From Cupriavidus sp. WKF15 (lineage in GTDB: Bacteria > Pseudomonadota > Gammaproteobacteria > Burkholderiales > Burkholderiaceae): a stretch of DNA of 64,000 nt. Each line of letters starts with the position of its first letter. The stretch's first letter is position 1. The stretch spans positions 2,542,001 through 2,606,000 of the forward strand of contig NZ_CP119572.1 of assembly GCF_029278605.1 (NCBI RefSeq), read 5' to 3'. Shown one piece after another: positions 39,944 through 46,018 of this stretch. The position numbers and the translations under genes were made by a program. A model generated the notes under the pieces. It ran no database searches, was not told the origin of the DNA, and saw only the letters and a list, made by a program, of their open reading frames with translations.

Positions 39944-42304
<2,361 letters not shown>

Positions 42305-42325
42305 TAAGGATCTTGGCTTATTGTG

Positions 42326-42931
42326 CTTGGCAGGCGCCGCTGTTTCGCCGGCGTAGCCGGCGAGTCACTTTTTGTCCGAGCGACAAAGAGTAACCAAAAA
42401 GCGCGTTTACTTGCCCTAGCGGGCGAATATTGATCGTAGTGTGCTGAGGATGTTGTACGGGTATGGGCTTCAGAGTCTGCCTGGCTGCCTGCCCCGTGGT
42501 GCAAGTCCGTGGGCAGGATTAGAGCGCTGATTGAACGAGCCCCGAAACTGTCCGTGGACCCTACTGCGAGTGATATCGCGTCATCGCCTTCGGCTGCTAC
42601 GCGGCTCATTAGTCGGCATGTGGGACGACATCAACGGCGCTGGTGCCGGTGCTTCTCCCCTTCGCCTTTTCGGTTTTCTCACCGAGCCGCGCGCAGCGCA
42701 GCCGTAGGCGTCCCACCGATGGCGTGGTTAGGAGGGGCCACCAAGTAATCCGGGTTCGCTCATCTGGAGCGTCTATCCTGGTCATCTACGCGGCAGGCAG
42801 TCTGGCTATGCCCTGTACCGTCTTCACCACCCGGGCCGTTCGTCGACCACGAAAACGCGTTTTTGGTTACTTTTGTCGCGAGACAAAAGTGACTCGCCGG
42901 CTACGCCGGCGAAACAGCAGCGCCTGCCAAG
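42326..42931. repeat. Non-coding element bounded by about 80-bp terminal inverted repeats
   Basis: Left end 42326-42409 and right end 42851-42931 are inverted copies with roughly 90% identity by eye. Each end has two internal hairpins: TCGCCGGC/GCCGGCGA (42345-42363; 42894-42912) and ACTTTTGTC/GACAAAAGT (42869-42890; the left copy 42367-42391 has one mismatch). The 440-bp centre has lower GC than its neighbours and no transposase; a 79-codon frame inside looks non-coding. It resembles a non-autonomous (MITE-like) or bacterial interspersed repeat. Copies elsewhere cannot be checked here. Confidence 0.8.
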
Positions 42932-42976
42932 AGCGACAACACCCGTCAAACCCAAACCCAAAAAACCAAACCTAAA

Positions 42977-43060
42977 CAAACCTCAAATTATACCGACCCC
43001 CCACCCCCCGAGGCGAACGATTTCCTCCCCCTCCCCCACGTTCCGTATAATTTGAGGTTT
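42977..43060. promoter_or_regulatory. Twin inverted promoter cores between the repeat element and valS
   Basis: Perfect 16-bp inverted repeat: AAACCTCAAATTATAC (42977-42992) and GTATAATTTGAGGTTT (43045-43060), 52 bp apart. Each arm holds a TATAAT: minus strand 42986-42991 (toward uvrD) and plus strand 43046-43051 (toward valS, about 100 bp before its start). The spacer is C-rich. No good -35 for either. Likely divergent promoters, possibly with a shared regulator. Confidence 0.6.
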
Positions 43061-43150
43061 TACTGGCACAGTGCAATAAATGCCACGCCAGGCGCAGGCC
43101 AGCGCACCCCGCCTGCAACAGCCCCGACGCCCAAACATCGACATCCCAGC

Positions 43151-46018
43151 ATGACCGCCCAAGACCAATCCCTTGCCAAGAGCTTCGAACCCGCCGCCAT
43201 CGAGGCGAAATGGGGCCCCGAGTGGGAGAAGCGCGGCATTGCCCAGCCGACGTTCGACCCGGCCAGGCCTGATTTCGCCATCCAGTTGCCGCCGCCCAAT
43301 GTGACCGGCACGCTGCATATGGGCCATGCCTTCAACCAGACCATCATGGACGGCCTGACCCGCCATGCGCGCATGCTGGGCGCGAACACGCTGTGGGTGC
43401 CGGGCACGGACCACGCGGGCATTGCCACGCAGATCGTGGTGGAGCGCCAGCTCGAAGCGCAAGGCGTGTCGCGCCACGACCTGGGCCGCGAGAAGTTCAC
43501 CGAGAAAGTCTGGGCCTGGAAGGAAGAGTCGGGTTCGACCATCACCCGCCAGGTGCGCCGCATGGGCGCGTCGATCGACTGGACCCGCGAGTACTTCACG
43601 ATGTCGCCGGACATGTCGAAGGCGGTCACCGAGGTGTTCGTGCGCCTGCATGAGCAGGGCCTGATCTACCGCGGCAAGCGCCTGGTCAACTGGGACCCGG
43701 TGCTGGGCACCGCCGTGTCGGACCTGGAGGTCGAGAACGTCGAGGAAGAAGGCTCGCTGTGGCACATCCGCTACCCACTGGTGGAAGCCGATACCAAGAC
43801 CGGCCTCACGCACCTGACCGTGGCCACCACGCGTCCGGAAACCATGCTCGGCGACGTGGCCGTGATGGTCCACCCGGAAGACGAGCGCTATGCGCACCTG
43901 ATCGGCAAGTCGGTGCACCTGCCGCTGACCGGCCGTCAGATCCCCGTGATCGCCGACGAATACGTCGACCGCGAGTTCGGCACGGGTGTGGTCAAGGTGA
44001 CGCCGGGCCATGACTTCAATGACTACGCCGTCGGCCAGCGCCACAACCTGCCGCAGCTGTCGATCCTCACGCTCGACGCGAAGATCGTCGCCGACGCCCC
44101 GGCCGCCTATGCCGGCCTGGACCGTTTCGAGGCCCGCAAGCAGATCGTGATGGACCTGGATGCCCAGGGACTGCTGGCCGAGGTCAAGAAGCACAAGCTG
44201 ATGACGCCGCGCAGCGAGCGCACCGGCAGCGCGATCGAGCCGATGCTGACCGACCAGTGGTTCGTCGCCATGAGCAAGCCGGCACCGGAAGGCACGTTCT
44301 ACCCGGGCCGCTCGATCGCCGAGGTCGCGCTCGACGCCGTGCAGAGCGGCGAGATCAAGCTGGTGCCGGAGAACTGGAACAGCACCTACAACCAGTGGCT
44401 GGCCAATATCCAGGACTGGTGCATCTCGCGCCAGCTCTGGTGGGGCCACCAGATCCCGGCCTGGTACGACGACGCCGGCAACTGCTTCGTCGCCCGCACC
44501 GAAGAGGAAGCGCTGGCCAAGGCGAAGGCCGCCGGCAGCACCGGCGCGCTGCGCCGCGAGGAAGACGTGCTCGACACGTGGTTCTCGTCGGCACTGGTGC
44601 CGTTCTCCTCGCTGGGCTGGCCCGCAGAGACGCCTGAACTCAAGCACTTCCTGCCGTCGTCGGTCCTGGTGACCGGCTACGACATCATCTTCTTCTGGGT
44701 GGCGCGCATGGTCATGATGACCAAGCACTTCACCGGCCAGGTGCCCTTCCATACCGTGTACGTGCACGGCCTGGTGCGCGACTCGGAAGGCAAGAAGATG
44801 AGCAAGTCCGAGGGCAACACGCTGGACCCGGTGGACCTGATCGACGGCATCGACCTCGACACGCTGCTGCAGAAGCGCACCACCGGCCTGCGCCGTCCGA
44901 AGGATGCGCCCAAGATCGAGAAGAAGACGAAGAAGGAATTCCCCGAGGGCATTCCCGCTTTCGGCGCCGATGCGCTGCGCTTCACGTTCGCTTCGCTGGC
45001 GACGCTGGGCCGCAACGTCAACTTCGACACCGGCCGCTGCGAGGGCTACCGCAACTTCTGCAACAAGCTGTGGAACGCCACGCGCTTCGTGCTGATGAAC
45101 GCCGAGGGCCATGACTGCGGCATGGGCCCGTGCAACAACGACTGCGGCCCGGACGGCTACCTGCACTTCTCGCAGGCCGACCGCTGGATCGTGTCGCTGC
45201 TGCAGCGCGTGGAAGCCGATGTCGAGAAGGGCTTTGCCGAGTACCGCTTCGACAATATCGCCAGCTCGATCTACAAGTTCGTCTGGGACGAGTACTGCGA
45301 CTGGTACCTGGAACTGGCCAAGGTGCAGATCCAGACCGGCACCGAAGCCCAGCAGCGCGCCACGCGCCGCACGCTGCTGCGCGTGCTGGAAACGGTGCTG
45401 CGCCTGGCGCACCCGATCATCCCGTTCATCACGGAAGAACTGTGGCAGAAGGTTGCGCCGCTGGCCGGCCGCGCCAAGGGCGATGGCAGCGAAAGCATCG
45501 CGCAGCAGGCCTACCCGCTGCCGGCCATGGCCAAGATCGACGAGGCCGCCGAGCAATGGGTGGCGCAGCTCAAGGCCATGGTGGACGCGTGCCGCAACCT
45601 GCGCGGCGAAATGAATATTTCGCCGGCCCAGCGCATTCCGCTCTATGCGCATGGCGACAACGCCTTCCTGCGCGAGGCCAGCGCGCATATCCAGGCGCTG
45701 GCGAAACTGTCCGAGGTGCGCGTCTTCGAAGACGATGCGACCTTGCAGACCGAGGGCGCCGGGGCACCGGTGGCCATCGTCGGCGGCAACCACCTGCTGC
45801 TGAAGATCGAGATCGACGTGGCGGCCGAGCGCGTGCGCCTGTCGAAGGAAATCGAGCGCATCGGCGGCGAGATCGGCAAGTGTCGTGGCAAGCTGTCGAA
45901 CGAGAGCTTTGTCGCCAAGGCGCCGCCCGCCGTGGTGGCGCAGGAAACCCAGCGCCTGTCCGATTTCGAGCAGACGCTGGCCAAGCTGCAGGACCAGCTG
46001 CAGCGCCTGCCGGCCTAA
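43151..46018 (+). CDS. valS: Valyl-tRNA synthetase
   Basis: Charges tRNA-Val in the cytoplasm. 955 residues: class I motifs HMGH (in [14 protein letters not shown], about residue 56) and KMSKSEGN (about 548), a CP1 editing domain, anticodon domain and a C-terminal coiled coil ([20 protein letters not shown]). A short Cys-rich insert ([15 protein letters not shown]) near residue 655 is notable. Start ATG at 43151 ([14 protein letters not shown]), which matches the family; the longer open frame upstream crosses the promoter. Confidence 0.97.

Follow-up and report, generated by a model that had tools for sequence, protein, structure and literature searches.

The 606-bp element lying in front of uvrD (positions 42326-42931 of the window, i.e. 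of the whole 64,000-nucleotide stretch of DNA that was analysed) belongs to a genuine family of Cupriavidus repeats of the REP/MITE kind, which is unusual in its length and in the modularity of its arms. We consider it fairly probable that the members of this family are hairpin-ended, gene-free extragenic repeats resembling REPs and MITEs, which would be mobilised in trans, would have their arms replaced in place, and would carry hairpins that act at the level of nucleic acids. An element comprises two half-units arranged head to head, each leading from an end module through an arm to a central module, and it usually measures 600-720 bp; the ends and a central module of ~30 bp are common to the arm types. 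In an alignment of copies from the home genome the window element is seen as a mosaic, with an arm of type B on the left and an arm of type C on the right (Table 1).

Table 1. Features of the uvrD-valS region in window coordinates.
Feature	Position	Strand	Basis
uvrD (DNA helicase II)	39944..42304	-	best NCBIfam match TIGR01075
Outer inverted repeat, left, degenerate; TGGCTCGTCGTG-like in other copies	42311..42325	+	flank listing
Left end: outer hairpin ~42344-42364 and inner hairpin ~42364-42392	42326..42405	+	inverted repeat, folding, home copies
Left arm, type B	42406..42585	+	clusters with 25 B arms; same-site arm alike in G058 and G039
Central module, left copy (shortened here), likely arm-exchange region	42586..42603	+	alignment of copies, sequence
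Central module, right copy, common to A and C arms	42688..42717	-	28-30 nt matches, mostly 93-100%, many copies
Right arm, type C, read towards the centre	42718..42850	-	matches among copies, arm clustering
Right end: inner hairpin (4-nt loop), then outer hairpin	42851..42931	-	inverted repeat, folding
Outer inverted repeat, right, degenerate	42932..42946	-	flank listing
uvrD-side -10-like hexamer TATAAT	42987..42992	-	ATTATA in 30/30 congener gaps read
valS-side -10-like hexamer TATAAT	43046..43051	+	30/30 gaps read
valS (valine--tRNA ligase)	43151..46018	+	protein family match

A first-pass annotation had described a 0.6-kb element with inverted ends of about 80 bp in front of uvrD, and its coordinates hold, with uvrD starting at 42304 on the minus strand (TIGR01075, by far the best match of the protein, scores 951 bits, below the curated cut-off of 1144). 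In the repeat search of the window, a pair of inverted arms (42326-42372 and 42885-42931; 47 nt, 98% complementary) is accompanied by a second inverted pair (42386-42400 and 42860-42874; 15 nt, 93%), which together provide the terminal inverted repeats typical of MITEs; because of these two pairs, the ends can be taken as ~80 bp long with a short unmatched bit inside. Folding predicts two hairpins in each end, a GC hairpin on the outside and an AT-rich one on the inside, and together with the inverted-repeat search it agrees with the earlier description of one two-hairpin module present at both ends in opposite orientation. With up to 2 mismatches allowed, the inner pattern TTTTTGGTTACTTTT occurs twice in the 64 kb, as does the outer pattern GTGACTCGCCGGCTACGCCGGCGA with up to 3; all of these occurrences fall in the element, versus 0.00 and 0.01 expected, respectively. 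The proposed potential to form a very long hairpin is borne out as well, as the 636-nt stretch 42311-42946 is predicted to fold with -340 kcal/mol, at z = -16 versus 20 dinucleotide shuffles. For the cores of 43 elements, deprived of their ends, the mean z is -2.9 (range -10.0 to +1.9, 12 shuffles each), and the strong fold of the element owes much to its ends. As had been noted, the element is poorer in GC (0.601) than the window (0.665), but this does not single out its centre, since the core (0.609) is not poorer than the ends (0.578). Overlapping ORFs of 80 aa or more encode 101 aa (42304-42609, minus strand) and 110 aa (42643-42975, plus strand), and one of 180 aa, antisense to uvrD, reaches into the element with its tail; judged by length none of them is transposase-like, in keeping with the claimed lack of a transposase gene. 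A covariance-model search of Rfam with 42200-43200 gave no matches at E up to 1.

The home genome (7.38 Mb, three contigs) contains the 80-bp left end in at least 49 places (best 40 of 112 candidates scored) and the element core in at least 51 (best 40 of 71 candidates scored), which confirms the suspected interspersed repeat. The outer-hairpin pattern (up to 3 mismatches) yielded 97 raw matches, some of them the two strands of one palindrome, versus none for the reversed control. Grouping of hairpins less than 800 bp apart resulted in 54 sites, a set in which copies split by insertions count as two and some weaker pattern matches are not included. None of the 54 sites lies inside an ORF according to a codon-usage-based prediction for which five genes of the window served as training set; 23 are found between convergent genes, 20 between tandem and 7 between divergent ones, with 4 unassigned. 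Contig C3 (about 0.90 Mb) has none of the 97 hairpin matches, although one IS256-type element is present on it in three full copies. An armless short form also exists as a nearly perfect palindrome of ~57 bp, in some cases with symmetry running into the G-rich outer flank (home C1:181800-184200, 517700-520200, 529700-532100 and 745800-748300; C2:143800-146300, 2477800-2480300 and 2499800-2502200); at the counterpart of home C1:529700, G043 and G058 carry instead an end plus a piece of the B arm. Elsewhere, tandem outer-hairpin units ~68 bp apart lead into an element end, in the manner of REP clusters (home C2:410055-410269 and C2:2640391, and G039:C40:35400-37000, with up to five units in G039).

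The inner stems show compensatory change. Watson-Crick pairs account for 501 of 696 cells in 58 distinct stems drawn from 129 ends, whereas 1000 shuffles of the partners averaged 340 such cells and never exceeded 398; the count can be inflated by relatedness of the copies and is lowered by the presence of ~10 stems that are short palindromes and not inner hairpins. A large number of stems nevertheless pair perfectly while differing from each other at multiple positions on either side.

Outside the home genome the family is narrowly distributed. Of 60 same-genus genomes, 28 contain the end module, the home genome being one of the 28 (up to 15 candidates scored per genome). Among 398 genomes of the taxonomic family it is present in 30 (up to two candidates scored per genome), namely the 28 of the same genus and two with weak matches (E of 8e-5 and 9e-4), both from one other genus. 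An exact arm-A pattern retrieved 16 stretches from a named collection, from which records of the home genome may be absent, and all of them come from C. laharis, C. yeoncheonensis or C. pinatubonensis, the species of genomes G058, G039 and G043, respectively. A distant-mode search of PLSDB plasmids and phage records, among which those near the home genome may be absent, gave no match. At the search sensitivity used, the element family is found almost only in part of Cupriavidus. No earlier description of it was found in the literature on Cupriavidus repeats (titles and abstracts, few subscription journals), and the names Cupriavidus, Ralstonia and Burkholderia do not occur in the main text of PMC3733652.

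When 47 paired elements, taken from five genomes, are clustered by arm, their arms fall into types A (39), B (25), C (25) and D (2), with three singletons. A gap-tolerant identity comparison failed to separate the classes and gave way to local scores. With ends and centre removed, relatedness is seen between arms B and C (z about 8); between A and B it is marginal by one of two scorings (24 of 500 shuffles) and missing by the other (364 of 500), and A and C show none. Homology of all arms was considered and rejected, as all three pairs looked related only when ends and centre were included, and A is not clearly related to B or C.

All 47 typed two-arm elements in G000, G039, G043 and G058 are heterotypic, i.e. 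they combine unlike arms; 20,000 within-genome random pairings gave an expectation of 18.0 and a minimum of 6, in a test that ignores descent of copies from each other. This set leaves out elements in which an arm fits no type or belongs to type D (A+E, A+F and, in G043, the element at the uvrD site), as well as copies whose arms lie more than 450 bp apart through insertion. In G016, 18 of 18 typed elements are heterotypic too, in a sample that leans to B arms because the loci were picked by their match to the left end and B arm of the window, which brings the total to 65 of 65 across five genomes. A rule of unlike arms only is nonetheless broken by A.A pairs, which make up all 12 elements in G028 (10/10), G029 (1/1) and G052 (1/1), the paired ones among 12, 3 and 5 fetched loci, respectively, and have arms 69-92% identical. 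As the elements of these three genomes are all A.A, heterotypy is at most a state of some genomes, and long quasi-palindromes do exist within the family.

The unlike arms may be due to selection against palindromes, or to descent from few founders. We regard as possible, in a tentative way, that the family represents a new class, a bipartite quasi-palindromic element derived from A.A palindromes (as they persist in G028, G029 and G052), one side of which was taken over by B, C and D in one clade, which would account for the purely heterotypic two-arm copies typed there. In bacteria, long palindromes are generally regarded as unstable, and unlike arms would possibly allow an element to escape this instability. 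The two arms vary independently in the A.B set of the home genome (Mantel r -0.02) and in the A.C set of G039 (0.11), and they co-vary in the A.C set of G058 (0.79) and the A.B set of G043 (0.75), so that in the latter two genomes the elements appear to travel mostly as whole units, which speaks against arm replacement in place. BIMEs are likewise mosaics of palindromic units and other motifs; unlike in BIMEs, however, whole arms of ~200 bp are here combined between fixed ends, and they differ at an orthologous site.

Transposases found inside copies are explained by later insertions of the IS256 family, which have their own ends and their own 8-bp duplications. One such IS, present in eight copies, has entered arm B three times within ~12 bp and an outer hairpin once, with two more copies within ~100 bp of elements; a first impression that six of the eight lay inside elements was cut to four after reading of the junctions. 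The three arm-B insertions (home C2:2594940, 793551 and 2123686, in both orientations) are independent, since their 8-bp duplications differ. Of a second IS256-type IS, two of nine full copies are located in or at an element. IS256-type elements inside outer-hairpin sequences were observed at home C1:1630246 and C2:1114311, and at G058 C1:123900-127000 (locus positions 474-2080) the left inner hairpin of a B.C element is split by an insertion with two ORFs (185 and 350 aa) that looks IS3-like on visual inspection. Several ends are broken right after ACTTATA (G039:C4, C22, C42 and C43; home C2:2387784), as if a common insertion sequence entered the inner hairpin behind this motif. REPs are similarly targeted by IS elements, the IS256 family included, according to the accessible part of PMC1525189. 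The IS256-type insertions, along with the lack of hairpin matches on C3 and of any match in the plasmid and phage records, would suit hairpins selected as DNA and not as RNA, whether as cruciforms for chromosome organisation or as insertion pads for IS elements; being an IS target is, however, no function, there is no known protein partner, and we find this explanation unlikely.

A conventional MITE, i.e. a non-autonomous derivative of a DDE IS moved in cut-and-paste fashion by the transposase of that IS, would have the inverted ends, the lack of a transposase gene, the multiple intergenic copies and the patchy occurrence between species that are seen here, as do prokaryotic MITEs such as the Correia element. 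The target duplication sought in the follow-up of the first-pass annotation was not seen: equal words of 4, 5, 6 or 8 bp are in no excess at a consistent offset around 47 elements versus permuted flanks, although older copies may have lost such duplications. No autonomous relative and no IS with these ends occurs among the loci read. The elements further differ from the Correia element and other MITEs in having ends of ~80 bp instead of about 4-30 and in exceeding the typical length of less than 500 bp (PMC10969869, accessible part), and no parental IS was seen. A conventional MITE is therefore a rather improbable description of the family.

There is also a resemblance to REPs and REPINs of Pseudomonas and E. 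coli, as both are extragenic and multi-copy and consist of inverted pairs of conserved hairpins with compensatory changes and tandem clusters (here of 68-bp units), as far as described in the accessible part of PMC3116915. A REPIN/BIME system would be moved by a RAYT, a Y1 tyrosine transposase, and the home genome does have a single gene with a match to the Y1_Tnp domain (C1:3399958). The hairpin matches nearest to it (C1:3330475 and C1:3580252) nevertheless come no closer than ~70 kb, so that the trait of a RAYT gene flanked by the same repeat is absent at home, and a Y1_Tnp match is found in 59 of the 60 same-genus genomes, exactly one in 45 of them, with or without the end module. A RAYT as the mobiliser is consequently not supported. 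A gene with such a weak match, seen across the genus mostly once per genome, looks like a domesticated RAYT. The GTAG or CGTC tag that terminates the stem-loop, which belongs to the class definition of REPs in the accessible text of PMC3733652, is absent as well, the GTAG of the element being located in a hairpin loop and not at the end of the unit. Usually 600-720 bp long versus roughly 100 bp, and provided with long exchangeable arms, the elements differ from REPINs, and we think it doubtful that they form a REPIN/BIME system. Long-inverted-repeat families of moderate abundance, TIRs/TIRYT, are also known from bacteria, but those flank a transposase gene (PMC3733652, accessible text), and none was seen in the element. 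With no mobiliser found, present-day mobility, as implied by the first-pass annotation, is not supported.

The uvrD-valS gap was read in 30 of the 60 same-genus genomes, and it is occupied, between collinear flanks, in five of them: home (846 nt, arms B.C), G058 and G039 (927 and 923 nt, B.A), and G016 and G043 (765 and 755 nt, D.A). The arms at this site are not conserved among the five genomes and match copies at unrelated loci. The B.C combination is found at the uvrD site alone among the 14 elements typed at home, and in G039 and G058, where part of the copies were fetched, the element at this site is the only A/B one of the 10 and 15 typed, respectively. Another common site also has different arms, A.B in G043 (C2:3761700) and B.C, in the same orientation, in G058 (C5:181900). 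An empty site was found in G052, with a gap of 218 nt, though this genome carries the element family elsewhere, and the other 24 congener gaps read contain no element. In G001, G040 and G042 the gaps are ~1.1 kb long and have other content, with no end match genome-wide.

In a DNA tree of the uvrD and valS flanks, the five occupied genomes and G052 form one clade (support 1.000), within which G052 groups with G016 (support 0.84; nearby branches 0.22-0.57). Because G052 branches beside G016 inside the occupied clade, it has probably lost the uvrD-site element, a reading that shares the moderate support of this branch (0.84). The simplest reading of the five occupied gaps is inheritance of the site, with another copy as the source of a new right arm in the home element; alternatively, the arms could differ because several insertions took place there independently. 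An ancient, fixed regulatory uvrD leader with a chance likeness to repeats elsewhere, to which occupancy in 5 of the 6 genomes of the clade read might point, is largely refuted by the multiple copies and has next to no credibility, given that the arms differ among the five genomes and match unrelated loci and that the element is absent from G052 and 24 other gaps. What was found is thus not a single copy of the same place and length in all relatives but many copies, and gaps of varying length.

In the 24 genomes without the element the uvrD-side hexamer lies 25-29 nt from the uvrD start, versus 591-763 nt in the five occupied genomes (683 at home). In G052 this distance is 59 nt, ~30 more than in the outgroups, as if a scar remained. 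The divergent uvrD and valS hexamers are contained in a 19-nt inverted repeat (95%) at window 42978-43060. A consensus promoter scan of 42250-43170 gave no full promoter, for which reason the uvrD promoter is regarded as putative. As the element is situated between hexamer and start codon, uvrD transcripts initiated from the hexamer would have to cross it, and if the hexamer is used, the element would constitute an added structured leader of uvrD. Two mirror-image terminator-like sites are read from the outside inwards, with a 4-nt spacer followed by T5 or T4, and the scanned region contains four such sites versus 1.3 expected (sd 1.4) in a weak motif scan; based on position and motif scans, the case for a terminator role of the ends is weak.

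The reading we prefer, of hairpin-ended repeats with arms replaced in place, would then proceed as follows. The uvrD-site element would already have been present in the common ancestor of the five occupied genomes. Judging from the sequences compared, it probably acquired new arms in place through gene conversion, for which another copy could serve as a template because the ends and the central module are common to the copies, and the right arm of the home element would have become C where relatives have A. Spread to new sites would depend on an enzyme supplied in trans. The hairpins would act at the nucleic-acid level, most simply as transcript-end structures, as sites between convergent gene ends outnumber those in any other single setting. 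The uvrD site would be atypical in this respect, with the element in the 5' leader, between a conserved -10-like hexamer and the start codon, and the expected effect would be a reduced or processed uvrD leader RNA. The Correia element, a MITE, can act as a promoter for gonococcal uvrB, as reported in the accessible part of PMC10969869.

In spite of the presumed instability of long palindromes, the family is maintained as many 600-720-bp quasi-palindromes in a genome. If the reading of the family as a new class of bipartite element is true, a DNA-repair helicase gene would have been left with an exchangeable structured leader of 0.6 kb at the uvrD site. The existence of genomes with unlike arms, of genomes with A.A elements, and of one site in four states (B.C, B.A, D.A and empty) would make it possible to test whether palindromes are stabilised by divergence of their arms and whether arms are exchanged by gene conversion, and the uvrD site itself represents a natural experiment concerning a repair-gene leader.
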